Virus record (IMG/VR): IMGVR_UViG_3300031227_000302
Span: 1-28,403 of that record
Strand: one strand, 5' to 3'
DNA from: a virus
DNA length: 28,403 nucleotides
Shown here: positions 2,281 to 28,403 of the stretch, one piece after another
Layout: each line of letters begins with the position of its first letter
Numbering within the stretch: position 1 is the first letter of the stretch
Notes under the pieces: generated by a model
Told to the model about the DNA's origin: nothing
Database searches by the model: none
The model's input: only the letters and a program-made list of their open reading frames with translations
Position numbers and translations under genes: made by a program

Positions 2281-2569
2281 CCGGCGGAAACCTATTGCCA
2301 ACGAAGCCGAGAAAGAGCGGGAGATAGGGCTTGCCGACTTACGAACGGTTATGGGTACGGCGGCCGGGCGCCGGGTTGTGTGGCGCTGGCTGGCGCACGC
2401 ACGGGTGTTTGCGCCCTGTTTCACCGGCAGCAGTGAGACGTTTTACCGCGAGGGCCGCCGCGAGTTCGGCTTGCGCATGTTCCACGAAGTTCTTGAGGCG
2501 TGCCCGGATCTCTACTCGCAGGCGGTGAGAGAGCTGAAGGCGCGGGAATCAGCAACAGGAGATGGTTGA
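2273..2569 (+). CDS. Bbp19-like small phage protein
   Basis: This 98-residue protein has a core of DLRTVMGTAAGRRVVWRWL followed by GSSETFYREGRREFGLRMF. That pattern is the Bbp19-like family, named after a Bordetella phage BPP-1 protein, found between portal and scaffold genes in BPP-1-like and other podoviruses. Its molecular role is not known to me; position suggests head assembly. The ATG lies inside the end of the portal gene (8-nt overlap) and it stops one base before the chosen start of the scaffold gene, indicating tight translational coupling. The family assignment is from memory of the motif and would need a profile search. Confidence 0.8.
   Translation: MADRRKPIANEAEKEREIGLADLRTVMGTAAGRRVVWRWLAHARVFAPCFTGSSETFYREGRREFGLRMFHEVLEACPDLYSQAVRELKARESATGDG
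2557..2561 (+). promoter_or_regulatory. Shine-Dalgarno AGGAG that fixes the scaffold start
   Basis: AGGAG sits 9 nt before ATG 2571 but directly against ATG 2562, which is too close to be used. This favours 2571 (protein beginning MAEAVV) over the longer frame. Confidence 0.6.
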
Positions 2570-2570
2570 A

Positions 2571-3248
2571 ATGGCAGAAGCAGTAGTAACATCGGTAGTC
2601 GAAGCGGAACCTGGGACCGTGCTGGCTGCCGGTGCCAGTGACAAGGACGCTTCCGTCCTCGCGGACGGTGTTCCCGCGGTCGATCCGAATGCTGATCCGA
2701 ATGCAGTTGTCGATCCGAATGCGGATCCCGATGCTGCCGCTGCCGTCGCTGCCGCCGCTGCCGCCGCCGCCGATAAGGATAAGACCGATGCCGGCGCCCC
2801 GGAGAAATACGAGTTCGCCGCTCCCGAAGGCGTCACACTCGACGCTGCGTTGGTCGAGAAGTTTGAGCCCATCGCTCGCGAACTCGATCTGTCGCAGGAA
2901 CAGGCGCAGAAGTTCGTCGGCATGTATTCCGAGCATATTGCCGCGCTCAACGGCCAGGCGCAGACCGAGTTGGTTACCAAACGCGCCGAATGGGCAGCTG
3001 AATTCCGGAAGGCCGGCGACTGGAAAGAACAGGCTGGATTGGCGCGTCGCGCCATCAACAATCTGGCAGACGAAGACACGCAACGGTTGTTCCTGGGCTC
3101 CTGGCTCGGGGATCACCCTGGGATCCTAAAGCTCCTGGCAAGTGCCGGGAAGCTGATCAGCGAAGATCGCGGTAAGCCGGGCGGCTCCACCTCACCGGCA
3201 GCGAAGAGTGCGGCGGACATTATGTATCCGTCGCTGGCAAAGAAGTAA
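2571..3248 (+). CDS. Scaffold-like capsid assembly protein
   Basis: This 225-residue, acidic, Ala/Asp-rich protein lies directly upstream of the major capsid gene, where scaffold proteins of short-tailed phages are encoded. The N-terminal third is low-complexity, with PNAD-type repeats and a poly-Ala run (about residues 38-67). A helical, charged C-terminal part follows: VEKFEPIARELDLSQEQAQKF, then a helix with WAAEFRKAGDWKEQAG, and a final basic tail ending SLAKK. Scaffolds typically bind capsid protein through a basic C-terminal helix and leave before maturation. No protease motif was seen. The start at 2571 is chosen from ribosome-binding spacing. The function is inferred from composition and place rather than from a diagnostic motif. 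Confidence 0.75.
   Translation: MAEAVVTSVVEAEPGTVLAAGASDKDASVLADGVPAVDPNADPNAVVDPNADPDAAAAVAAAAAAAADKDKTDAGAPEKYEFAAPEGVTLDAALVEKFEPIARELDLSQEQAQKFVGMYSEHIAALNGQAQTELVTKRAEWAAEFRKAGDWKEQAGLARRAINNLADEDTQRLFLGSWLGDHPGILKLLASAGKLISEDRGKPGGSTSPAAKSAADIMYPSLAKK
2682..2773 (+). repeat. Tandem GATCCGAATGC repeat and GCC tract inside the scaffold gene
   Basis: Three copies of GATCCGAATGC and one variant, GATCCCGATGC, occur between 2682 and 2734, followed by a GCC/GCT run to about 2772. In frame they give PNAD/PNAV and poly-Ala. The tract is prone to slippage and lies in the disordered N-terminal part of the protein. Confidence 0.8.
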
Positions 3249-10606: not shown

Positions 10607-12325
10607 ATGCCGACAGTACCGACCTATCAGCGGCAGATCGGCCCGGCGGCGGTTCCCGGTGTGACGCAGAACATACAGATGCCCGCAAACCCGCTTCCCG
10701 GTGCGCTCGCGCAGGCAGGCGCCACGGCAACTGGTGTCGGCACTGCGCTGATGCGTCAGGTTCGCGTTAAACAGGCCGAAGATGATACCTATGCTGCGCA
10801 GACGGCGTATGCCGGTGCACAGGAAGCGTTGACGCGCTGGCAGGCCGGCGAGCTGCCGAAGCTGCGCGGCCTCGATGCGTCAACCCGGGCCGTTCAGGCG
10901 GCAGAGGGCACGCTTGCGGCGACGTATGACGGCGCTGTGCGAAGCCTGTCTCCGGATGCAAAGAAGCGGTTCGACGTGCATTGGGGCGGACTGCGAACGC
11001 GCGTGATCGGCGCGGCGGCCGGGCACGCGGCACGCGAACATGACGCAGCAGCGGAAAACGCGTACAAGGCACTGCGCGTTACGGCAGTTGAAGCAGCAGC
11101 CGGCGCCGAAACGGAGGAGGAGATTCAGAGCGCGCTTGCGCCGTTCCTCGCGTCTATGGGCGACCGCTTGCGTGGGCAGGCTCCGGAAGTCGTGGAATCT
11201 GAAATGGACACGCTTCAGTCGGACATCGGCACGGCCCGGTTGAACCGTGTGCTTACCGACATGGCCGCCGATCAGGATGAGGCAACGGTCGCAAAGCGCC
11301 GGGTGCATGCTCTCGAAGTGCTCGGGGAATACGGCAGTGTGCTCGGCTCTGACGCGGTGGACGCGTGGACACAGCGCATCGAGGGGCGCGCATCGTCGAA
11401 GACGGCCGCCATCGAACAAGCGCGTAACGAGTATTGGGATGACCAGATCAACCGCGGCCTGCTGAAGATGCAGCAGATCGGGGACGGCATGAGCCCGCGA
11501 GAGCGCGAGTTCAATACCGACATGATCATCGGGCAACTTGAAGCGACTCCGGACATGCCGCCGGAATATCAGCTCAAGGTCCAGCGGATTCGTTCTCTGT
11601 GGCTCAAAGAAACTGAACAGATGGTAAGCGAAGAGGGCCGGCGCCGGCAGGATGCGCGCACACACCTGGGTGATACACGGCTGCTCGATCTACGGCTGCG
11701 CTTTGCTGCCGGCCATGAGACTTCCGACAGCTACCGGCGTAAGCTCACGGAGCTGGCTGAAGACGAAACGGTCGGCACGCTGGGGGTACGCGGAAAGGTC
11801 GCGGGAGAAATCGAGCAGATCGTCGGTGGCAAGGTGTCGGAACTCGACCGGGCAACCGCAACCGCGATGAACGGCCTCGCTGACATGAACTACTTCCTGA
11901 ATCGCCACCTGGAGCGGGGCTCCGGCAACAACATGATTGACCGCACTGAAGACGTGTGGCAAGCGCAGATCGATGCAGTCAGCAAGAATCTCGCGAAGGG
12001 CGGCAAGGAGGCGGAACAGGCCATTGCCGACATGGACGCATTGGTCGAGCAGCGGCGTGAGGCCGACGTGCTGTTCGTCGAGGCTGAGCGGTTCCGCCAA
12101 GACTGGCTGCGGAAGAACGCAAAGCGCACCGATGTGTCGCCGAAAGAGTTCGAGGCGGCGTTGCGCCTGCACCTGGCAAGTGATAAGGCCGCCGCGCTGA
12201 AGGTCCGGTCTGCGACGGCGATGAGAGGTGTAGCGGACGGCATGGGGTTGCCGTTCACCCGTACCGTTTTAGCGCTCCCCCGCGCGGTTTATCGTGCCGT
12301 AGAGCGAGTGAGGACGCAACAGTGA
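10607..12325 (+). CDS. Internal virion protein, T7 gp15-like
   Basis: This 572-residue protein is almost entirely helical and charged, with the opening VPTYQRQIGPAAVPGVTQ and then QAEDDTYAAQTAYAGAQEAL, typical of gp15-position proteins in podoviruses. It continues in alpha-helical repeats to the end. T7 gp15 (about 750 residues) forms the periplasmic channel with gp16; this one is shorter. AGGACA precedes the ATG. The end overlaps the next gene by 4 nt (GTGA), so the giant protein is probably made by coupled translation. No catalytic motif was found. Confidence 0.78.
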   Translation: MPTVPTYQRQIGPAAVPGVTQNIQMPANPLPGALAQAGATATGVGTALMRQVRVKQAEDDTYAAQTAYAGAQEALTRWQAGELPKLRGLDASTRAVQAAEGTLAATYDGAVRSLSPDAKKRFDVHWGGLRTRVIGAAAGHAAREHDAAAENAYKALRVTAVEAAAGAETEEEIQSALAPFLASMGDRLRGQAPEVVESEMDTLQSDIGTARLNRVLTDMAADQDEATVAKRRVHALEVLGEYGSVLGSDAVDAWTQRIEGRASSKTAAIEQARNEYWDDQINRGLLKMQQIGDGMSPREREFNTDMIIGQLEATPDMPPEYQLKVQRIRSLWLKETEQMVSEEGRRRQDARTHLGDTRLLDLRLRFAAGHETSDSYRRKLTELAEDETVGTLGVRGKVAGEIEQIVGGKVSELDRATATAMNGLADMNYFLNRHLERGSGNNMIDRTEDVWQAQIDAVSKNLAKGGKEAEQAIADMDALVEQRREADVLFVEAERFRQDWLRKNAKRTDVSPKEFEAALRLHLASDKAAALKVRSATAMRGVADGMGLPFTRTVLALPRAVYRAVERVRTQQ

Positions 12326-15300
12326 GCGTGTTCGATCAAGAGAGTGTTGCTTCGGGGTTGCTTGGGACCGGCAGCGGGTTTGTGAACCCGAATGTCCTGC
12401 CGCCGCCGGAAGGCTTCGACGCACTGGCCGTCCAGCCAGGAAGCGGGAGCCTGGCGTTTCCGTCCGGCACCATGCCGTCCGGCCCGATTGATCACGGCAA
12501 GGCGCTGAATCTGATCCTCGGTGATTTCTTCGGACCCGATCCCTATGGCGTGCTTGAAGACGAAGCCAACGCGTCCGACGATCCCGTGCAGTTCAAGCGT
12601 CACCGGGCGATGGAGCACTTCCTTGCCTCGCGGTTTGCCGAGCCTATTGAAGCGGTGCAGGGCGATTTCGACCTGTACCTGCGCGAGTGGTTCGGCCCGG
12701 ATCGCTCCGAAGCGGACGCCTATCGCAGCATGCTCTCGCTGACGGGGCATGAGGAAGACCCGTTTGTTCCGCGCGTGCCGAAGGAGCCGGAAGGCCCGTC
12801 GTTCGGCGCACGGTTGCCCGGCATACTCGCCGGTAACGTCCGCAAGGCCGGCGACGTCGTGCGCACGGTTGCCGGCGCTGTCGTCGGCGAGGACGCGACC
12901 CAGGAGATTCCCGCGCTTGCTGTGCAGACGGTCGCCGGTGCCGTCAAGGACATCTACAAGATGGGCGGCGGGTTGAGCCCGGAAGAGGTCGAGCGGCGCA
13001 ACGAATGGGACCGGCAGGGCAAGCCGGTCTCCTACCGCGGCCACAAGAACTTTCTTCGTGGCGCGATGGGCACGGTGGCAAGCGCGTTGATCAGTCAACC
13101 TCAGTACGCGCTGTACGCGCTCGGGTTCAACCAGGCGGCGGCACGGCTTACGGAACTGGCCGGAGAAGCAAACAGACAATTTGGGCCGTTGCCGGTGACC
13201 GCACGGGGGGTCCGCGAAAAGAGCGGGACATGGGAATACTACGTGAGCCAAGAGTTCTGGACCAGCACCATGCCACAGACGGGAACAAGTATGGCCGTGT
13301 TCCTGGGGGAACTGTGGGCGTTCGCCGGTATAGCCCAAGCGTTCGGAGTCGCATCGCCGATGCTTCAGTACACGATGGGCGCAGTGGCCAGCTCTACGCT
13401 TGAAAGCGCGTGGAACGCGGGCCAGACCATGACGGACATAACCGGGGGCGGTGGCGTGCGTCTGACAGACGCACAGGATGAAGCGCTGTGCGCGGTCGAG
13501 GCGCTGCCGGAAGACATGCAGGGGTTCATTCTGAACGCAGCCGGGATGAGTGCGGCTATCGGCTACCGTAAGGCGCTCAGTGCGACGCATGACGAACGGC
13601 TGGCGCGCGATGGGGCCGACAAAGTGTTCTGGACCACGCTGCCGATGAATATTGCGTTTGACCTTCTGAGCGCTGGCGCGGGCGTGGCGGGCGTGAGGGG
13701 TTGGAAGGCCGGGTTCCGCGCGTCGGGCGTGCTGAGTGCATCGGCTGCAGGCTACTTCCAGGCTGAACAGGAGCTTAAACAGGATACCATCCAGAACGAC
13801 GCGCTTCCGGCTGTGGTTGCCGGACGTGCTATTTCCCTCGGCTTATTGCCTACCGACACGGTGCGCGCGTTGCTTCCCGGGGGCGATCCGGAAGCGCGTG
13901 ACACGGCCGTCGCTACACTGCTGCTGGGCGGGAAAAGCGCGATAGTAGGCTCGGCGTTCGACGCGGCGAACGCCAAACATCTTGCCGACCTCGAATCGCA
14001 CCAAAAACGGTACATGGGCACACTGAAGCAGGCCGCCGACGCGGGCTCGGTAGTGGCGCGGGCTCAGTACGAAGCTCTGTCGCGGCCGGTGCCCGGCAAC
14101 GACAAGAGCACAGCCCGCAGTCTGGGCGTGTACTTCAATCGCCTGCGCGACATGGCCGCACGCCGGTTCGTCGGCATCACGGCGGACGTGGCCGCAGCGG
14201 ACACAGCGGACGATGTGGGCGCCATTGATCCGGACGGTGTAACGGCCGATGAAATCGCCGCGATGGCCGATGAGATCGAAACGCAAATGGAGGAGGATCG
14301 GCAGTGGTTCGACGAACACCCGGCGGTTGAGGAGGACGCGGCAGGCGTCGAGACGGCAGAACCGCCGGTTGTCGATGATGCTGCAGTCGCGCCGGTTTCC
14401 GCCGAACCGGATACCGCGGAATCGGCAGCCGATACCGCAGCTGAGCCCGGCCCTGTCGAGCAGGTGCGCAGCGTCCTTGCTGTCCTTGAGTCGCTGAACC
14501 CGGCGGCCCGGAAGATGCGCGTTATCTCGGAAGCCGAGATTCCTGCCGCCTACAAGGCCCGGCTCCAGGAGGGGCAGCACATCCGCGGTTATCTCGACAC
14601 GGCAACCGGCGAACAGGTGATTGTCGGGGACGCCATTCAGGGCGACGTGGTCCGGTACGTTGTGGGCAAGTGGGCGCACGAGCAGAGCCACGCAGGCCTC
14701 AGCGGACTCTTCGGCGCCGACACGGCCGGGCGCGATGCGTTCCTCGACTGGGTGCAGCGGTCCATTGACCCGGAAGCGTTGGCGGGGTTGATCGACAAGA
14801 CCGGTATGACTGCAGACGAGACTCGCGCGGATCCGCAAAAGGCAATGCGCGTATCGGCTGAAGAATACCTGGCGCGCCTGGCTGAGAAGGTAGCGACCGA
14901 CGGGCCGCAGGCGCTGAACGCGAAGCAGTCCGGCATATGGGGTGCCGTGAAAGGCGCGATCGGGAAGCTGCTGCGCACCCTCGCGCAGAAGGCCGGTGTG
15001 CCGCTGACGCTGACCGACGCGGACCTTGAGGAAATCGCGGTATCCATGCTACGCGCGGCCGGTGTCGAACGCACACCACAACTGGCAGAACCGCAGACGG
15101 GCGCGGAACCGCCGCCTATTCCGGCATCGGCGCCCGCCCAACATGCGGCATTCACCCCGTCTAACCAGCTTCAACTTGCCCGCGATGCGGTGCGCAAGCT
15201 CTATCTCACCCCGTCCGATCGACGTGAACTGAAGGACGCCGGTATCAACCTTTCTCCGCGCTACGTCACCGGCAACTCCGCACACGGCATGAATTGGGAT

Positions 15301-18300
15301 CAGGCCGGACAGCTTATCGCCCGCGAGTATCCGGGGCTCGGGCTGAGTGAGGACAATACCGACATTGCCGAAGTTGCACGGCTGTTCGTCGGCAAGGCCG
15401 CGGACTTCGAGGTGCCGGACACGTCGGGGCAGCCGGGCGTGGTCGAAGCACGCGAGCTTGCCGTAGGTGACGCATTCACGGGGCCGGACGGCGAGGAAGA
15501 GATTGTTGTCGAGAAGCGCGCCGACGGGAGCATTGTCACCGCCGACGGCATTGTGCGGCAGCATGACGGCAGTGCCATTGTCGCAGCGGAAGAGGAAGTT
15601 GGCCGGGCTACGGCCGACGAAATGGACGATGCCGAAGAGATGGTCGCACGACACGAAGCGGATGCGGGGGGAGTTACCCGCTTCGACATCGGGGACGATC
15701 GGACCTTTTCCGAAGCCGAGATTGCCGCAGTCTTCAAAAGCGCCGTCAAAAACATGGGGCTGACCAAAGATATTCGCGAAGCCGGCTATGTCCTGCCGGA
15801 CGGCCGAATGCTGGACTTCAGCGGAAAACGTGACGGCGGGGATAGCGGCGTGCGCTACATGGATCACCGCGAGATCGACTATGACGGCGCGGAGGGCTAC
15901 AACGAGCCGATGGTCAAGTTTCTGCGTATGGGTGCTCTTCGTATTGATGCCAACCTGGGCATGGTCAGCGCCGAAGCGCCATTGTCCAGCAAGCAACGCC
16001 AGGCCGCGGAGCTTGTGCTCGCAGACGGCGGTTGGGTGGACGGCGAGCGGAAGGACATGAAGCGCTACTACGTTGAGGTCGTAGACGGCAGTAAGGCCAG
16101 GCGCGCGCTTGGTGAGCTTCAGCGGTTCCTCAAGGGGGAAGATGTAGAGTCGCATACACTGTTCAGCATCGACGCCGACGCGCAAGGCACCTTTGCCGGG
16201 CTCCTGGGTGACGTAGGGCTGAAGCGCCTTGAACAGTACGCCGCGGGTGTGCTCGACATGCCGAAGCTCCCGGACTGGGCCAAGGCGAAAGCGCGCAACA
16301 CCATTGCCAAGGCGCGGTCCGGTGCGATCACGGATCCGCAGGCGGCCTATGACGACCTGACGCGCACGCTGAACGCGGCGGCGAAGATGGCCGACCGCAC
16401 GCCAAGCCGCGGCGTTCAGCAGCAAGGCGACCTGTTCGGGGGCACGGGACCGGGGCAGGGGACGCTGTTCAGCATCGAGGACGATGCACGCCGCCTGGTT
16501 GGTTCCATGCGATACGCGCGCGGCTCGACCATGGCGCGCAGTGCGGCAGCAGAGTTCCTGAACAAGCCGCTGCACAATCGGGAGACGGGCATCGTGGCAA
16601 CAGTGTCGGGGAGTTCCCTGGGCAAGATGCTGAGTCGGAGCGCTGTCGATCAGTCCATATCTCCGCAGGCGCACATGCAGGCCGTGGCCAATCTGGACCG
16701 ACTGTTTCCGGTGGCGATTCCGCGTTTAACACGTTCTGATCGCAATAATGACCCGACAGTGAAGGCGTTGCACCATTTCAGTGTGCCGATGCCCTTCGAC
16801 AGCGACGTACTGCACGTCAAGATTATGGCCAAGGAGTTCAGGCAGTCAGGGCAAGGGACCAGGCTGTACCTGGTGCAGGCGGTAGAAATAGTGAAGCCCG
16901 CTTCATGGTTAAAGGTGCAGCCGACCTCGTCAGAGACCACGCCGGGCTACGATCCGCTAGCGGGCTTCAATGGGAAGATACAGCAATTCACGGACGCTGT
17001 CAAGGCGGCAATGGAAACGCAGGCTGGTGACGACATCCGGTTCGACATCGGAGACGCTGAAGCCAGCGCCCCGCCGTCTGTCGGCGCACGTGAGCGCGTG
17101 GTAGCGCTGGTACTCGCCGAACGCGACTTGCACGCACGGCCGCTCGGTGTGCGCGCTGTCGGCAACCGTCTGGAAGCGCTTGGGCTCCCGCGCACCTCAG
17201 CCGCCGCGGTCATGGACGAAGCGAAGGCGATAGCCGACGGGTTCCGCGCCGAGCGTGCCGACGTGGCGCGGGACGAAGACATTCTCGATGCACTGCTCAC
17301 GAAGGAACTGCGGACAGCCTTTACCAGCGGGATGGACACGGCCGCCGACACGGGCGCGGCACAGCAACGGCAGATAGAAAACGCGTATCGGCAAATTGAG
17401 ATGTGGAAGCGCAAGCGCGTGCAAGCACTGGCCGCCTCACGCCCGGGGTTGTCGGATGCCGAACTCGCAGCGGCCGGACAGAGCAACCTGTCTCAGCGCA
17501 TGGCCGACGTGGTCGATACCTGGGTACCGCCGGGAAAGAAGGCGCATGCACCGCAAGCCGAAGAGGCACAACCGGAGAAAAACGCGAAGCACGACGCGGC
17601 CGATGCAGACGAGTTCGACGCGGCCACGCTCGATGCCGCGGAGCACGCCGAAGAGGACGTAGCGCTGGCACCGTTGCCCGCGGAACTGCCGAGCGACCCG
17701 GTGGACCTGGCGGCGCTGAAGCAGACGATTGCGGAACGTGCAGCGGCGAAGCTTACCGCCGAAGGCTACAAGGTCCGCGGCAACGGCAACACGGATCCGG
17801 TATTGCGCAAGGAGATCGCGGTCACCTGGGCGCGGTTGCTGCGCGGTGCTGCCTGGGAACACGTGCCACACGGAGCACAGCGGGAATGGATCGTCGATGC
17901 TCTGCGAAGACTCGAACTTCAGCCGCCGACGGTCGCCGGCGCCGGCCGGCGCGTGTCGCAACTCGCCTATTGGCTGAGTCGTGCCGCAATAAAGGCGGAC
18001 GCCGACGTCATTGTCAAACGCATTGACAAACTCTTGAAGCTGAAGCGCGTGAAGAGCAAGGGCAGCACACGCACTGAACTGATCAAGCGCGAGATCGAGC
18101 CCGCGGCCAAGGCATGGTTGCGGCTGGTCAAGTCCGTGTACAAGGTGGGCGAAGTCAAGAGCAAGGAACTGCTCGACACCCTGCGCGCGCTCGATGAACA
18201 ATGGGATCTCGGGCAGATCGACGCCGACACACTGCGCGAACGGCTCGGACTGATTTCCGGCGGGCTCGCGACCGATCCGGTGTATCTCGCGATGGACCCG

Positions 18301-20430
18301 GCGGACGCGATAGACGAGGCCATGCGCGCACTTGCGAAGTACGGCGCCATCCGGCACCGGTCTCCGGCGGACATCCGGCAGGCACTCGATGAGCTGCAGC
18401 GTGACTATGACGAGGGTGTCGCGGCGATTGCCGAAGCACGTCAGCGCCGACGCGACCGAATGGGACCGATCCGCGAAACGATTGCGGCGGCCGTACGCAC
18501 AGCACCCCTGGTCGGTCGCCAGGACGGTTTGAAAGCGGGGCTGAAAAAGCTGGCACGCGGCAACTATGACTTCTATCAAGGGATGCGTGATCTTGTACGT
18601 TTCGCCAAGGGCGACCTGCACGAAGATGCAGTTGACGCGATCATGAACCTGTCGATGCAGATTCAGGAGTCACACGATGCCTACCACGCCTATGTAGGGC
18701 GAACGCGTGAGGCCATTGCCGCCGCTGTTAAAGAGATATACGGGCACTGGGACGTTGAGAAAGTGCTGAAGGATCTGGAAAAGCCGCTGGCAACGTTACA
18801 GCAGTTCTCGCGCAATCCCGAAGGCCGCGTGCAACTGTCGCACTCGAACCTGCTGGCGATAATCGCGATGCTCGATCAGGAGCACTTTGCGCGCAACGCA
18901 GAGAAGTTCGACCGCGCCGGAACATACCTGGCCGACCTGAAGGCGGCGGTTTCCGAGCAAGATCTGAAGTTCCTGGACTGGCTGCGTGAGTCCTATCACG
19001 ACAACCGCCCGGAGATTTCCGCCAAGAGCGTGGACGTAAACGGTGTCCCCGTCGTCTCCCCGGACGCGCTCTATCATCCGGGCAAGGTAGCACGCGAAGC
19101 GGCGGGGCTCGCCGAGTTCCATTACACCCTGCAACTCGCGCCGGAAACCTTCGAACAACGGCGCCGGCACAACTGGGATCTTGACGAAACCGCCAGTGTT
19201 GTCGGACTGTACCATCTGTATGCCGACCGGAACGCGCGGTTCCTCAGTCACGTCGATCTTGCGCAGGATATGCGCTATGTGTTCGGGCATCCGGACACGC
19301 GTCGCGCGATCGAATCGCGCATCGGCAAAAAGGGCGCAGCACAGTTGCTGGAATACATCACAAAAGTCGTGCGCGGCCGCAACTTCGACAAGGGCACCGC
19401 AGGCCATGAAGTGCATTCAAGGGTGCGCGGCATCAGCACGCTTACAGTAATGAGTGGCAATGTCGGCTCCGGCATCCGCCAACTCTGCGCAGTCGGCGGT
19501 GTGCCTATGGCGGCCGGCGCAATGAACAGCGCGAAAGCGGTTGCATGGCAGATTGCGCACCCCAAGCGCTGGCGGCAGATCGTCAACGAGATGAAAAAGA
19601 ACCCATCATTCCGCCAGTGGGCAACGCGCGGCTACCTCGAAGCTGTGGACAACGCTATGCACGGAACAGATCCGCTGACGCGGTTCCTGCAGCTCGGCAT
19701 GGTCGTGCAGTCGGCAGGCATCCAGGGCGCGACGTTTCTTGTTGTGCCGGGCCTGTACGAGGCGCGCAAGAAAGACCTCATCGGGCAGGGGCTCACGCCT
19801 GAGCATGCCGCCGAAAGAGCGATGACCTGGGCGAACTGGCTGGTGCATCATACGCAGGGCAGTGCACAGACAGCAACAACCGCGATTGAGATGCTGAGCA
19901 GGGAAGAGGCGGGGAAGTGGATCATGATGTACACCGGTCCGCTGACGCAGTTGTACGGTTGGGAGCAGCGTGCGTTCCGTGAGGTAGCGGCGGGCACACC
20001 TGGAGCTAAACGGCAGATCGGCAATGTACTGCTCGCCAATCACGTTGTTATCCCGAGCTTGTATATGCTTGGCATGGCATTGCAGTCGACGGTAGTTGGC
20101 AAGTTCCGCGACCGCCCCGACAAAGAAGTAGAACGGCTGCTAAAGCGGTGGGCGGCCATGATGGTACTCGGTCCCGTGGGAGGCGTGTTCCTGCTCGGGC
20201 CTGTTATCGAAACCTTCGTAGACATAGGGTTCGGCCAATCATTCGGCGGCGGTGGCATGCCGGTAGTCGAGCAGCTTACGCGCCTCGGCGCTTCCGGTTA
20301 CAGCCTGATGGAACATACGCTTATCGACTGGGATCCGGTGGAGATGGCGAAGGACTGGAACCGGATTATGAGTCAGGTTTCCGCGCCCTGGCGCGACACG
20401 AGCCGGGCAATTGAAAACTGGTCAGACTGA
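12322..20430 (+). CDS. Giant polyvalent DNA-ejection protein (gp16 position) with zincin motif
   Basis: The 2702-residue protein occupies the place of T7 gp16. The first 600 residues hold hydrophobic segments (about 249-273, 322-345, 438-460). Residues 786-790 are HEQSH (HEXXH), followed by SAEEYLARLAEK with E847/E848, the layout of zincin-like domains of phage polyvalent proteins. Further on: a beta domain near 1040-1085 (VGDAFTGPDGEEEIVVEK), a YVLPDGRMLDFSGK/GVRYMDHREI domain at about 1130-1275, and an LPD3- or PBECR-like unit at about 1400-1530 (MLSRSAVDQSISPQAHMQAV). The linkers RFDIGD (1120 and 1573) and TLFSI (1279 and 1381) separate these. The rest is helical, with two hydrophobic segments at about 2572-2590 and 2611-2637. 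No lytic transglycosylase motif was seen. GTG start overlaps the previous stop by 4 nt. Domain names are from motif memory. Confidence 0.85.
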   Translation: MSVFDQESVASGLLGTGSGFVNPNVLPPPEGFDALAVQPGSGSLAFPSGTMPSGPIDHGKALNLILGDFFGPDPYGVLEDEANASDDPVQFKRHRAMEHFLASRFAEPIEAVQGDFDLYLREWFGPDRSEADAYRSMLSLTGHEEDPFVPRVPKEPEGPSFGARLPGILAGNVRKAGDVVRTVAGAVVGEDATQEIPALAVQTVAGAVKDIYKMGGGLSPEEVERRNEWDRQGKPVSYRGHKNFLRGAMGTVASALISQPQYALYALGFNQAAARLTELAGEANRQFGPLPVTARGVREKSGTWEYYVSQEFWTSTMPQTGTSMAVFLGELWAFAGIAQAFGVASPMLQYTMGAVASSTLESAWNAGQTMTDITGGGGVRLTDAQDEALCAVEALPEDMQGFILNAAGMSAAIGYRKALSATHDERLARDGADKVFWTTLPMNIAFDLLSAGAGVAGVRGWKAGFRASGVLSASAAGYFQAEQELKQDTIQNDALPAVVAGRAISLGLLPTDTVRALLPGGDPEARDTAVATLLLGGKSAIVGSAFDAANAKHLADLESHQKRYMGTLKQAADAGSVVARAQYEALSRPVPGNDKSTARSLGVYFNRLRDMAARRFVGITADVAAADTADDVGAIDPDGVTADEIAAMADEIETQMEEDRQWFDEHPAVEEDAAGVETAEPPVVDDAAVAPVSAEPDTAESAADTAAEPGPVEQVRSVLAVLESLNPAARKMRVISEAEIPAAYKARLQEGQHIRGYLDTATGEQVIVGDAIQGDVVRYVVGKWAHEQSHAGLSGLFGADTAGRDAFLDWVQRSIDPEALAGLIDKTGMTADETRADPQKAMRVSAEEYLARLAEKVATDGPQALNAKQSGIWGAVKGAIGKLLRTLAQKAGVPLTLTDADLEEIAVSMLRAAGVERTPQLAEPQTGAEPPPIPASAPAQHAAFTPSNQLQLARDAVRKLYLTPSDRRELKDAGINLSPRYVTGNSAHGMNWDQAGQLIAREYPGLGLSEDNTDIAEVARLFVGKAADFEVPDTSGQPGVVEARELAVGDAFTGPDGEEEIVVEKRADGSIVTADGIVRQHDGSAIVAAEEEVGRATADEMDDAEEMVARHEADAGGVTRFDIGDDRTFSEAEIAAVFKSAVKNMGLTKDIREAGYVLPDGRMLDFSGKRDGGDSGVRYMDHREIDYDGAEGYNEPMVKFLRMGALRIDANLGMVSAEAPLSSKQRQAAELVLADGGWVDGERKDMKRYYVEVVDGSKARRALGELQRFLKGEDVESHTLFSIDADAQGTFAGLLGDVGLKRLEQYAAGVLDMPKLPDWAKAKARNTIAKARSGAITDPQAAYDDLTRTLNAAAKMADRTPSRGVQQQGDLFGGTGPGQGTLFSIEDDARRLVGSMRYARGSTMARSAAAEFLNKPLHNRETGIVATVSGSSLGKMLSRSAVDQSISPQAHMQAVANLDRLFPVAIPRLTRSDRNNDPTVKALHHFSVPMPFDSDVLHVKIMAKEFRQSGQGTRLYLVQAVEIVKPASWLKVQPTSSETTPGYDPLAGFNGKIQQFTDAVKAAMETQAGDDIRFDIGDAEASAPPSVGARERVVALVLAERDLHARPLGVRAVGNRLEALGLPRTSAAAVMDEAKAIADGFRAERADVARDEDILDALLTKELRTAFTSGMDTAADTGAAQQRQIENAYRQIEMWKRKRVQALAASRPGLSDAELAAAGQSNLSQRMADVVDTWVPPGKKAHAPQAEEAQPEKNAKHDAADADEFDAATLDAAEHAEEDVALAPLPAELPSDPVDLAALKQTIAERAAAKLTAEGYKVRGNGNTDPVLRKEIAVTWARLLRGAAWEHVPHGAQREWIVDALRRLELQPPTVAGAGRRVSQLAYWLSRAAIKADADVIVKRIDKLLKLKRVKSKGSTRTELIKREIEPAAKAWLRLVKSVYKVGEVKSKELLDTLRALDEQWDLGQIDADTLRERLGLISGGLATDPVYLAMDPADAIDEAMRALAKYGAIRHRSPADIRQALDELQRDYDEGVAAIAEARQRRRDRMGPIRETIAAAVRTAPLVGRQDGLKAGLKKLARGNYDFYQGMRDLVRFAKGDLHEDAVDAIMNLSMQIQESHDAYHAYVGRTREAIAAAVKEIYGHWDVEKVLKDLEKPLATLQQFSRNPEGRVQLSHSNLLAIIAMLDQEHFARNAEKFDRAGTYLADLKAAVSEQDLKFLDWLRESYHDNRPEISAKSVDVNGVPVVSPDALYHPGKVAREAAGLAEFHYTLQLAPETFEQRRRHNWDLDETASVVGLYHLYADRNARFLSHVDLAQDMRYVFGHPDTRRAIESRIGKKGAAQLLEYITKVVRGRNFDKGTAGHEVHSRVRGISTLTVMSGNVGSGIRQLCAVGGVPMAAGAMNSAKAVAWQIAHPKRWRQIVNEMKKNPSFRQWATRGYLEAVDNAMHGTDPLTRFLQLGMVVQSAGIQGATFLVVPGLYEARKKDLIGQGLTPEHAAERAMTWANWLVHHTQGSAQTATTAIEMLSREEAGKWIMMYTGPLTQLYGWEQRAFREVAAGTPGAKRQIGNVLLANHVVIPSLYMLGMALQSTVVGKFRDRPDKEVERLLKRWAAMMVLGPVGGVFLLGPVIETFVDIGFGQSFGGGGMPVVEQLTRLGASGYSLMEHTLIDWDPVEMAKDWNRIMSQVSAPWRDTSRAIENWSD

Positions 20431-21804: not shown

Positions 21805-23490
21805 ATGTGCCGCAAACTGACTGCTTCCTGCCTGGTGATGTCGTTGATCCTACTTGCTGCCGTGACTGCCTGGGGTCAGTCCGTCTATCCGTTCGGGACG
21901 ACACGACCACGGTTTTCGCACGTCGGCATCGGGTCTGCTCCGGATGCAACCGCGCATATCAAGGTTGCCTACGACGCGGCAGCGTATACCCTGGTGACCC
22001 AGGCAGACGGTGCCGGGATGGTCTTCGACTGCACCAGTGACGGGACTGCTTCGTTTACATTCAACGATCCTATAATCGCCGCGATTGCGGGTCTGAGTGG
22101 TGACCTCACGCTGGACGATGGGGTGGGTGATAGTCCGTCGCTGATCTTCATTGACGCTGACAACAATACGTTTACGGTTCTCAAGCTGGACGCTGGCGCG
22201 GCAACGCTGACGAATGACGAAGGTGCGATCAACCTGCTCCCGAGTGGCGATTCCGACGACTACTTCACCTTCACCACTGCGGCCAATGTTCCCACGATCG
22301 GAACGGTCGGCGCGTGCAATCTCAACATCACCGCAGGCGGCGGGGGCATAGGGTTCGCGGACGAGAATCTGAGCACGACGGGGTCCGTGTCCGGCGGGAC
22401 GCTAACGGATGGCACGGCCAGTATCACCGGGGGAGCGTTGACCGGACTCACCACTCCGCTGACTGCCGCGCAAGGTGGGACGGGGCTGGCGGCCTTGAGT
22501 GCCAATGTGGTAACTCTCCTTGGCGCCGCGAACTTCGCTGCCTTCAAAACCTCGCTCTCGTTGAACAACGTCGAGAACACTGCGCTCTCGACCTGGGCCG
22601 GGACGTCCAACCTCACTACCCTTGGGGCAATCGCCTCGTGCACGAGCCTCACGAGCGCAGGGACGATCCAGGGCGGAACGCTGACGGACGGCACGGCGTC
22701 CCTGACGGCCGGAAGCCTCACCGCTGTGAAGCTCGGTACCCTGACCAGCAACGGGTTCGTCAAGACGTCCGGTGGGGACGGCACACTCTCGGTTGACACG
22801 GCGACGTATCAGGCCAGCGACGCAGAACTCTCCGGCATTGCAGGCCTCTCCGGAACGGGCCTCGTCGCCAAGACCGGCGCCGGGACCTTCTCCGAGCGCA
22901 CCGTGACCGGGACGGCAAACGAGGTGACTGTCACGAACGGGGATGGCGTCAGCGGGAATCCGACGCTCTCGATCCCGGCCGTAGTAGACCTTGGCGGGAA
23001 GACTTCAGTCGAGCTACCGAACGCCGCTGATCCTGCTGTCACTGTGGCGGGGCAGTTCGCACAGGACACAACGGACGGAGCATTAATCGGGTATGACGGG
23101 ACCGCGGAGCGTGTCTACGCTCACCCGGTTGAGCAGTTCAGCTTCACGGTCTACGACGATACGGACTGGGCGAGCGAGGCTGTCCCGGTGTGGACGGCCC
23201 CGAAAGACATGGCCATCACGATAACGCAGGTTCACGCCGTCTCGATGGGTACGACCCCGTCGCTTGCCTACAACATCGAAGAGCGGGCCAAGGCGGGTAT
23301 GGCCTCTGCTGGCACGGACATCTACGCCGCAGACCAAGCGGCTGATGCTACCGGGGAAGACGAGACTTCGTTCAGCAATGCTGGTATTGCCGCCGGGGCG
23401 CATCTTGTGTTCACCACTGCCGCCGCTCCCGAGACAGGCACTGTTGATCTGATCCACGTCGTGGTCTACTACACGAGGGACGTGGAATGA
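21805..23490 (+). CDS. Tail-fibre protein with N-terminal signal peptide
   Basis: ATG 21805 gives a 561-residue protein opening MCRKLTASCLVMSLILLAAV and TAWGQS, a plausible Sec signal peptide (basic start, hydrophobic core, AWG-Q site). The upstream in-frame ATG 21781 would add eight residues inside the previous gene. The body is fibre-like: AAQGGTGLAAL, LNNVENTALSTWAG and GLVAKTGAGTFSERTVTGTA/NEVTVTNGDGVSGNPTLSI are motifs widespread in phage tail fibres. GGTLTDGTAS occurs twice. The last 120 residues form a beta-sandwich-like tip (FSFTVYDDTDWASEAVPVW). The end overlaps the sulfotransferase start (ATGA). A signal peptide is odd for a virion fibre. Confidence 0.8.
   Translation: MCRKLTASCLVMSLILLAAVTAWGQSVYPFGTTRPRFSHVGIGSAPDATAHIKVAYDAAAYTLVTQADGAGMVFDCTSDGTASFTFNDPIIAAIAGLSGDLTLDDGVGDSPSLIFIDADNNTFTVLKLDAGAATLTNDEGAINLLPSGDSDDYFTFTTAANVPTIGTVGACNLNITAGGGGIGFADENLSTTGSVSGGTLTDGTASITGGALTGLTTPLTAAQGGTGLAALSANVVTLLGAANFAAFKTSLSLNNVENTALSTWAGTSNLTTLGAIASCTSLTSAGTIQGGTLTDGTASLTAGSLTAVKLGTLTSNGFVKTSGGDGTLSVDTATYQASDAELSGIAGLSGTGLVAKTGAGTFSERTVTGTANEVTVTNGDGVSGNPTLSIPAVVDLGGKTSVELPNAADPAVTVAGQFAQDTTDGALIGYDGTAERVYAHPVEQFSFTVYDDTDWASEAVPVWTAPKDMAITITQVHAVSMGTTPSLAYNIEERAKAGMASAGTDIYAADQAADATGEDETSFSNAGIAAGAHLVFTTAAAPETGTVDLIHVVVYYTRDVE
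22393..22719 (+). repeat. Diverged internal repeat of the fibre gene
   Basis: GGCGGGACGCTAACGGATGG from 22393 and GGCGGAACGCTGACGGACGG from 22672 start two related units 279 bp (93 codons) apart. Both encode GGTLTDGTAS(I/L)T. The unit is likely one shaft repeat of the fibre. Confidence 0.6.
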
Positions 23491-24206
23491 GCAACCCCGT
23501 CACATATCGGACGCTCCGCACGGTCCAACACCGATACCCCGCCGAGCGTGTGGAGCGTGATCGTTTGTTCAACGTCTTTGTCCTCGGTCTCCCGAGAAGT
23601 GGCACCTCTATGATGACCAAGTGCGTCGAACTCCTTGGCGTGAAGATGGCATACACGACTGAGGAGGATGAGGCCCGGAAACGCAGGGACGCCCGATACA
23701 AGCGCAGTCTCGGAGCAGACTATCATCCGAACCGGGACGGGTTCTTCGAGATCACCCGCCAGAACCTATGGGATTGCTACACGCGGATCATGCAGACCCC
23801 ATATTCTGGGTGTAAGATGATTGTGCCCGTGACTCCTGCCGACCCCCGAATGTGGGTGCTCCGTTTCCAGCCCCGGACCCGTGTCATCTTGAACGTGCGC
23901 GATGCCGAGTGTGTGCGGCAGAGTCAGCAGGCTTTCTACGGAGGCGACCGGGAGCAGTCGGCAGAAGAGATTCGCAAATGGCTGTCTCGTATACACACGG
24001 TCTACCAGCAGCAGGCGAAATGGTTGACGCAGATGGGCGTGAAAGTTGCGACGGTTCCCTACGAGCGCGTCCTTGAAGACCCACGGGGGAGCATGGGGAT
24101 CATTGCTGAGTTCATCAACGCCCCGAACCCGATTGACGCGGCTGTTGCCAACGTGAAGCGGGATCAGTGTCGGTTTAGCCCAGATACGATTGAGGCGGGA
24201 ATATGA
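23487..24206 (+). CDS. Sulfotransferase family protein
   Basis: This 239-residue protein carries the PAPS-binding signature of sulfotransferases: FVLGLPRSGTSMMTK, with the 5'-phosphosulfate loop at about residues 34-42, and VILNVRDAECVRQS, where R138 and S146 stand 8 residues apart as in the 3'-phosphate site of known SULT enzymes. The family moves a sulfuryl group from PAPS to a hydroxyl or amine of a glycan, lipid or protein. It has no signal peptide, so it acts in the cytoplasm. It is embedded between a fibre and an adhesin gene with ATGA overlaps at both ends, so it is co-translated with them. The acceptor is unknown; a surface glycan or a virion glycan are possibilities. Confidence 0.88.
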   Translation: MSNPVTYRTLRTVQHRYPAERVERDRLFNVFVLGLPRSGTSMMTKCVELLGVKMAYTTEEDEARKRRDARYKRSLGADYHPNRDGFFEITRQNLWDCYTRIMQTPYSGCKMIVPVTPADPRMWVLRFQPRTRVILNVRDAECVRQSQQAFYGGDREQSAEEIRKWLSRIHTVYQQQAKWLTQMGVKVATVPYERVLEDPRGSMGIIAEFINAPNPIDAAVANVKRDQCRFSPDTIEAGI

Positions 24207-27068: not shown

Positions 27069-28403
27069 CTATGCCACTCGCAAAATCGCGCCACCTGCAG
27101 CCGAAACAGTTAGCATAAGCACCCTTGGGCTTGCCATCCTTGACGTCTGTGCTAACCGGTCCCCGGTTGTCAGCTCAATATCCCACTTCCCGCCGTCGAT
27201 CCACTGGACCCGTGCAACATGCGCCGCGACCAGCCGACGGCGTACGGCTGCATCGTCGGCCGTCTCCAATAGCCGTCCCAGGTGCGGCAGTTCTTTTGCC
27301 GCGGCCTCGGCTATGGCGAAATGGCTCAATGGCCCGTCAGCGGCGTCTACGAGCGCCTGAGAGTGCGTCTGTGTCTCCGCCAGCAGACGGCGTGTGTCCG
27401 ACAGACGGGTATTCCAGTGCGGTGCGTTGTCGGTGGTCACCAGGCCGTCAAGGAATGCGCGCTCGATGCGTTCGATCTCTCGTGTGTGTGTCCGCTGCTG
27501 TTCCCCGAGGGCTCGGAGTTCCGGGTCCGTGCGGATGCGTTCAGCATCGCGCACCTTGCGGATAGCGGCAACTATCCGTGCAATGTCGTCGTCACGATAT
27601 CGGCAGCCGGCCAGGGCTTCGAGGACCATGGCATCGAGAGCCGGGGCCGATGTACGCGTGGAACATACCGGGGCACTACTGCACTGATAGTAATAGTATT
27701 TCTTCCCGCCGCGGCCGTGTGTGCTGTAGGCGGTCATTACCTTGCCGCAGTGACAGCGGACGAGCCCGGCAAGCATGTACGGATAGCTCTGAGCATTCGG
27801 TCGCGCCTTGCCTTGCCGGCGTTTGGGAACGCTGGGTTGCACCGAATCCCAGAGAACTCGGGGGATGATTGGCGGATGCTTGCCATCGTAGTCGGTATCG
27901 CCGTAACGGATGGTACCGATGTAGATGGGGTTACGCAGGATGTTCCAGAGCTGCTGGCGGGCAAGTCCCATGTCGCGACACAGTGCCGCGGGCGACTCAC
28001 CGGCGGCGTAGCGCTCGTAGAGGGCGCGTACGGTCTTCGCTTTATCCGGATCGGGCTCGAGGATGTTCTGCCGCTTGCCTGGGCGCCGATAGCCGAATGG
28101 GGGAATGCCCCAGGGGATGCCCCCGGCTTCGCAGATCGAGATCATCTTCGCTTTCGTACGCTCTGAGTTGATTTCCCTTTCCCACTGCGCGAACACGAGA
28201 ATGATATGCAGCATGGCGCGGCCGGTGGGCGATGCCATGTCCAGGTTCTGTGTAACAGAAACAAGACCGCGGCCGGCGTCGCGCAACGAGCGCAAGAGCG
28301 GGATTGCATCGGTCAGGGACCGAGACAGCCGGTCAAGGTGGCGCACGATCAGCACATCCCACGGAGCGACGCCTGCAGCCAGATCGGCGAGGATGCGTTG
28401 ATA
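27069..28403 (-). CDS. Large serine recombinase / integrase (5' end outside window)
   Basis: The minus-strand frame is open from the right edge (first codons YQRILADLAAGVAPWD) to a TAG at 27069, about 444 residues; the catalytic serine and first part of the resolvase domain lie beyond the window. Visible landmarks are LIVRHLDRLSRSL, TGRAMLHIILVFAQWEREIN (resolvase domain end), GIPPFGYRR (recombinase domain), and the zinc-ribbon region VRCHCGKVM then YYYYQCSSAPVC, with a C-x-C first pair rather than the usual CxxC. A helical C-terminal coiled part follows. Large serine recombinases integrate phage DNA at attB sites. The 3' end faces the lysis genes with a 24-nt gap. The attP site is expected near its 5' end, outside the window. 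Confidence 0.92.
   Translation of the reverse strand, partial: YQRILADLAAGVAPWDVLIVRHLDRLSRSLTDAIPLLRSLRDAGRGLVSVTQNLDMASPTGRAMLHIILVFAQWEREINSERTKAKMISICEAGGIPWGIPPFGYRRPGKRQNILEPDPDKAKTVRALYERYAAGESPAALCRDMGLARQQLWNILRNPIYIGTIRYGDTDYDGKHPPIIPRVLWDSVQPSVPKRRQGKARPNAQSYPYMLAGLVRCHCGKVMTAYSTHGRGGKKYYYYQCSSAPVCSTRTSAPALDAMVLEALAGCRYRDDDIARIVAAIRKVRDAERIRTDPELRALGEQQRTHTREIERIERAFLDGLVTTDNAPHWNTRLSDTRRLLAETQTHSQALVDAADGPLSHFAIAEAAAKELPHLGRLLETADDAAVRRRLVAAHVARVQWIDGGKWDIELTTGDRLAQTSRMASPRVLMLTVSAAGGAILRVA

Follow-up and report, generated by a model that had tools for sequence, protein, structure and literature searches.

The giant protein encoded at 12322-20430 (+; GTG start, 2702 aa) in IMG/VR virus record IMGVR_UViG_3300031227_000302 is punctuated by four copies of a short peptide, which we call separators and which are best explained as sites at which a modular polyvalent protein, delivered by the virion, is processed (probability about 0.55). 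The window analysed here is the whole 28,403-nucleotide stretch, positions 1 to 28,403 of that record. Under this explanation, an ejection-protein backbone, consisting of an N-terminal part with a zincin-like metallopeptidase (MPTase) domain and a C-terminal part, would enclose three modules of cargo, namely M1, a helical one and LPD3, with one copy of the peptide in a disordered linker at each module edge. A protease of matching specificity would cut at the separators and release the modules, either while the protein is still in the head or once it has been injected; the predicted pieces are about 118, 18, 11, 21 and 124 kDa. We infer the cutting, its timing, the exact bond and a role for the protein's own zincin as cutter; the separators themselves are very probably real.

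The peptide RFDIGD, at residues 1120-1125 (15679-15696, +) and 1573-1578 (17038-17055, +), marks the two outer edges of the cargo block, TLFSID, at residues 1279-1284 (16156-16173, +), lies at the far edge of M1, where homologues carry an equivalent peptide, and TLFSIE, at residues 1381-1386 (16462-16479, +), separates module 2 from the LPD3 module. All four had been located at these residues in an earlier note made from the DNA letters alone, which gave the segments between them as about 154, 97 and 187 residues (the spacers measure 153, 96 and 186). That note took RFDIGD and TLFSI for separate motifs; both occur, but they are better read as one, as all four sites fit the pattern [TI][RL]F[DS]I, with the consensus [TI]-[RL]-F-[DS]-I-x-[DE]. 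At the DNA level, the copies of each repeated word differ by synonymous changes only. In 2,000 shuffles of the giant protein, 6.2 repeated exact 5-mers were expected (11 observed) and 0.44 repeated exact 6-mers (two observed, RFDIGD and TVAGAV; P = 0.09), and exact repetition, being marginal, was dropped as stand-alone evidence. The joint pattern occurs four times against 0.004 expected in shuffles, a contrast tempered by its definition after the sites had been seen. Because exact repeats are marginal and the joint pattern is post hoc, independent evidence was sought in homologues.

The separators fall between units that look like separate domains, as the earlier note had supposed. M1 (residues 1126-1278; 15697-16155, +) bears the signature EAGYhLPDGRMLDFSG and has no Pfam match; module 2 (residues 1285-1380; 16174-16461, +) consists of a short bundle of helices and, after it, a disordered tail; the LPD3 module (residues 1387-1572; 16480-17037, +), between sites 3 and 4, is the sole module recognised by Pfam (PF18798 at 1405-1516, E = 1e-12). 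In an AlphaFold2 model of residues 1085-1600, the predicted local distance difference test score (pLDDT) of M1 is 90-98, and module 2 forms helices at model residues 204-274 (pLDDT about 90) before dropping below 50. The four sites, at model residues 36-41, 195-199, 297-301 and 489-494, lie in or across stretches with pLDDT <50: residues 33-40 for site 1, 195-211 for site 2, 277-364 for site 3, and 483-492 together with 494-504 for site 4. None of the motifs is thus buried in a modelled fold, though the model says less about sites 3 and 4 because LPD3, for which no alignment was used, is poorly modelled. A fold search of the Protein Data Bank with the four-site model, inside which M1 was searched, returned no match. 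Module 2 has no relatives among the collected loci, and an alignment search with LPD3 found only the twin contig of the window. A stand-alone LPD3 protein of 214 aa lies at 5785-6429 of L159, a Haematobacter massiliensis plasmid, with no phage-like neighbourhood.

Where M1 occurs in homologues, its edges are usually marked by an equivalent peptide, spelled differently from protein to protein. A single phage record proved related: that of Rhodobacteraceae phage LS06-2018-MD07, whose match covers residues 1105-1283, beginning shortly ahead of site 1 and reaching site 2. Its giant protein has a repeated peptide of its own, LFQ, with ILFQIV right after M1, then ILFQRD, LLFQGD and others. A profile search with M1 retrieved 66 viral loci (cited here by L numbers), and most giants among them have an F/Y-centred peptide at one or both M1 edges, such as TFSIS/TFSME in L013, RFSIS/SFSIS in L033, NYSIA/SYSIS in L032, RFMP in L019, KLFQTD/ALFQPD in L054, ALFQG/VLYQG in L039 and RFSIA/RFSIA in L060. 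The spelling (RFSI, TFSI, YSI, FSKE, LFSPR, RFMP or LFQ) tracks the protein rather than the module. When the M1-edge 6-mers of 36 non-redundant proteins were searched in their own sequence versus the others, they had 76 near-matches in their own protein against 25 +/- 6 after permutation (maximum 56 in 10,000 permutations), a count inflated because the 6-mers were picked by eye; reversed motifs gave 25 and shuffled proteins 25.6. Single proteins can hold many copies, with five [LV]FSPR in L073, twelve FSKE-like peptides in L026 and six RFS[LIV] in L050. The same peptides bracket other cargo: ART-PolyVal at 1048-1231 of L099 stands between RDILFQAAER (1024) and DDILFQAAER (1242), and ART-PolyVal at 2068-2196 of L060 between RFSIA (2037) and RFSIG (2203). 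M1 also occurs in proteins with ART-PolyVal, LPD23 and ddrB-ParB, and in L008 LPD3 precedes it; judged from these sequences, it is a widespread mobile module without a Pfam match. Two further arrangements were noticed in these proteins. In L099, 7913-14686 encodes two ART-PolyVal stretches flanked by near-identical DDILFQAAER peptides, and residues 1673-2055 of L060 hold two tandem M1-like copies flanked by RFSV/RFSI peptides.

A candidate protease lies in the same chain. Residues 725-925 (14494-15096, +) are homologous to the HExxxH MPTase clade, with an active-site motif HEQSH at residues 786-790 (14677-14691, +), one residue shorter than HExxxH. Both histidines and the glutamate of HEQSH, as well as a downstream glutamate pair, are invariant in an alignment of 25 rows (A10). 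A zincin query from L040 retrieved the window's twin contig (E = 3e-8), and a Parabacteroides protein with LPD38 matches the window zincin at 34% (2e-11). The modelled domain has a mean pLDDT of 79, with HEQSH within a helix. A Foldseek search with this model returned no match at E <= 0.001; in VIA-align, the best rows were mostly zincins (Z 4-5.6), including PPEP-1 and N4 vRNAP, which gives middling support. By homology, the domain is a member of the HExxxH clade of polyvalent peptidases, and with HEQSH and the downstream EE in place it looks intact.

In one class of giants, the separators are associated with a zincin type. An alignment of the S[TS]xxHELxHIFRR-type zincin fetched 80 loci regardless of LFQ (a few of them earlier founders again), from which 63 non-redundant giants were retained, with kinship reduced solely by a 60% identity filter. 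These contain 135 L[FY]Q against 42 expected from shuffles, and in 24 of the 63 an L[FY]Q precedes the zincin by 7-19 residues (p = 2.5e-26 against a background of 1.7%; 0-3 for control motifs). The excess was no greater in longer proteins. Among M1 proteins, those with this zincin type have 52 [LM][FYW]Q against 21 expected, and those without it show no excess (29 against 31); a site follows M1 in 8 of 16 proteins with it compared with 1 of 28 without it (p = 5e-4). That LFQ sites accompany one zincin type favours a protease acting in cis in the LFQ class. The heptapeptide LFQGPKG of L077, L081 and L078 shares the letters LFQGP with the picornaviral 3C site, presumably by convergence.

Cultured phages present a comparable arrangement. 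In BcepIL02 gp70, KFSV, AFSV and RFSV stand around LPD3 and an HEAFH zincin, and their JC1 counterparts are KYSV, SFSV and RFSV in a region that is 62% identical overall. At the middle site, three of the four core residues are kept between the two phages and 7 of 30 flanking residues are identical; flanks are better kept at the other two sites (25 of 30 at the first). Sites bracket LPD3 and the zincin in BcepIL02, DC1 and JC1, and in Parlo and LASTA the zincin is preceded by [RQ]YSV and followed by [RA]YS[VM]. The DarB-like giants of Bcep22-like phages (Lessievirus), namely BcepIL02 gp70, DC1 gp67 and JC1 gp69, resemble the window protein in having an LPD3 and a zincin set apart by repeated peptides, which in their case read [FY]SV, but they are larger (4515-4667 aa), include SLT, methylase and helicase regions and use another spelling. 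JC1 gp69 is virion-associated, as detected by mass spectrometry of CsCl-purified virions (PMC9144972). In L223 (Pseudomonas phage Itty13), the giant coding sequences are annotated on one strand and the DarB-like match falls on the other, so the strand of the annotation is probably mistaken there.

Several observations weigh against self-cutting by the zincin as a general explanation, and some against cutting itself. The TFSI/YSI and SYRL classes keep their separators and have no HExxH, and for the HExxE/EExxE region before the first separator in these classes, kinship with zincins was not significant (hhalign E = 0.097 for the FSI-class HExxE region). BPP-1-like giants have a related zincin and no clear LFQ excess (9 versus 4.2), and in giants of the HExxxH clade, to which the window zincin belongs, F-anchored repeats are not above those with other anchors, an FSR excess (15 versus 6) being confined to a small subset of them. 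Some proteins with a zincin have no separators at all. N4 vRNAP is packaged unprocessed (PMC5512222, PMC12633501), and P1 DdrB has no repeated separator and was dropped as an experimental anchor. An in-cis zincin as universal cutter is therefore unsupported, since separators occur without HExxH and zincin clades without a separator excess, and may serve some classes only; for the window protein, its own zincin is a candidate cutter. The conserved region before the first separator places HExxE or EExxE where the zincin motif would stand (residues 688-909 of L033, 708-933 of L030, 768-965 of L017 and 765-934 of L028).

The persistence of separators in proteins without HExxH, together with the lack of a general link between F-type sites and the window zincin's clade, could also mean that the cut is made in trans by a host protease or another phage protease. 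We consider this somewhat unlikely as an alternative, and it overlaps the processing-site explanation, which leaves the cutter open. It does not account for the association of LFQ with one zincin type, and the varied spellings would require varied host proteases. Within the window, the sole 'protease' label (phrog_458, 2562-3248, +) falls on a scaffold-like sequence without a Pfam match, which was rejected as cutter; the label is possibly a mislabel of the family. Binding rather than cutting is a still less probable account: each linker would dock its cognate partner, whether a chaperone or a scaffold, core or ejection protein, for packing or threading through the tail, and the spelling would track the partner. 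Protein-specific spelling and linker position suit any cognate binder, classes without HExxH retain the sites, and the injected P1 DarB is known to be targeted to the capsid through a short peptide, its N-terminal 30 residues (PMC9024508). A docking protein would need a single site, however, yet the giants have one per module edge, and LFQ sites accompany and abut one zincin type. Binding of the beta-clamp through QxxLF, suggested by QGDLF...QGTLF near residues 1367-1383, was set aside because most spellings lack the Q.

The linkers might instead be passive seams, copied or homogenised as modules were gained by recombination between short repeats and without present function, which we regard as improbable. 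The modules do move, recur and change order (in L008 LPD3 precedes M1, and L060 has two M1 copies), and the synonymous-only differences leave the DNA copies in the window near-identical. However, the separators adjoin many unrelated modules and hold a fixed place before the zincin, their amino-acid pattern is common across classes, and in the Burkholderia phages an FSV core is kept beside a diverged flank (3/4 versus 7/30 at the middle site), even if the first-site flanks stand at 25/30. Coincidence, with short words recurring because the protein is long, is a very improbable explanation: exact 6-mer repeats are not unusual, but the joint pattern far exceeds expectation, the copies sit at domain edges and homologues have counterparts. 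Processing at the separators thus remains our preferred explanation. Of the earlier proposal of defined cleavage sites, the placement in disordered linkers at module edges, with counterparts in homologues as defined sites would lead one to expect, has held up; cutting at them is predicted.

Polyvalent proteins, and self-processing by their MPTase, are already on record. Giant delivered multidomain proteins with LPD domains and zincin-like MPTases were described by Iyer, Burroughs and Aravind in 2017, who also proposed that the modules are released by the proteins' own MPTase (PMC5512222); the word 'linker' is absent there, and the passages dealing with cleavage and motifs describe no repeated site. 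The present analysis adds to this account the sites, their protein-specific spelling and a zincin-linked class. The papers searched, with most subscription journals outside their coverage, contain no description of a protein-specific separator code and no list of sites for the self-processing proposed since 2017. N4 vRNAP (gp50) likewise is giant and ejected, and flexible linkers join its HExxH domain of zincin type (PMC12633501); it differs in being packaged uncut. The PLxRFG proteins of Klebsiella phages were rejected as the same phenomenon, their motif being different, single-copy and near the C-terminus.

MARTX self-cutting toxins and RNA-virus polyproteins consist of modules split by short sites with a protease in the same chain, of cysteine or other type; the analogy with the window protein is one of working principle only. 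We tentatively propose that a protease-and-site code operates in many polyvalent proteins of phages, which would be injected as polyproteins; in this code, one repeated spelling per protein is matched to its own protease and diverges by lineage (LFQ, FSI, YSI, FSV, FSKE, FSPR, RFMP and RFDI). If so, incoming modules must acquire the local spelling. If these proteins are indeed cut, tailed phages would, as RNA viruses do, make use of polyproteins, and the proteases involved would have novel specificities. The separators provide exact testable sites in the cultured phages JC1, BcepIL02, Parlo and LASTA, and they mark module borders, an aid in annotating giants with few Pfam matches.

The genomic setting is consistent with delivery from the virion. 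The gene is the last of an internal virion protein cassette, the position of T7 gp16, in a structural operon with portal (phrog_332), major head protein (phrog_212), tail proteins (phrog_394 and phrog_376) and internal virion protein (phrog_418). Its product, with 2702 aa, several domains, a place in a phage structural operon and Pfam LPD3, has the hallmarks of a polyvalent protein. No SLT (lytic transglycosylase) match was found in it (Pfam, E <= 1), so the likeness to T7 gp16 is limited to gene place and does not extend to membership. The protein would sit in the virion and is probably injected into the host cell, and the virus is best explained as a T7/BPP-1-like podophage with a giant virion protein. 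Compact ejection proteins of BPP-1-like phages (Bbp10, Pseudomonas AF_016 and Vibrio NVP1021A_18) are encoded at the corresponding position, directly following the internal virion protein genes, and have a zincin near residue 800-1000, but BLAST matched none of them to the M1/LPD3 block of cargo modules, and repeated separators are not clearly in excess in them.

Downstream of the cargo, residues 1827-2692 (17800-20397, +) form a C-terminal backbone region common to phage giants of other separator classes. It matches L060 at 24% identity (E = 1e-42) and, in profile comparisons, L013, L017, L020, L055, L054, L088 and L146, proteins of the FSI, SYRL and LFQ classes; the compact Vibrio NVP1021A_18 protein matches part of it. 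A C-terminal part common to giants of different separator classes therefore points to one backbone with varying cargo and varying separators. No near relative of the window DNA was found among phage records. Elsewhere in its structural region, adjoining genes without matches, 23487-24206 (+) encodes a Sulfotransferase-family protein (PF13469, E = 3.6e-10). At the end of the window, 27069-28403 (-) encodes an integrase/invertase-type recombinase (phrog_95, 1.6e-71; also phrog_125), which suggests a temperate phage.
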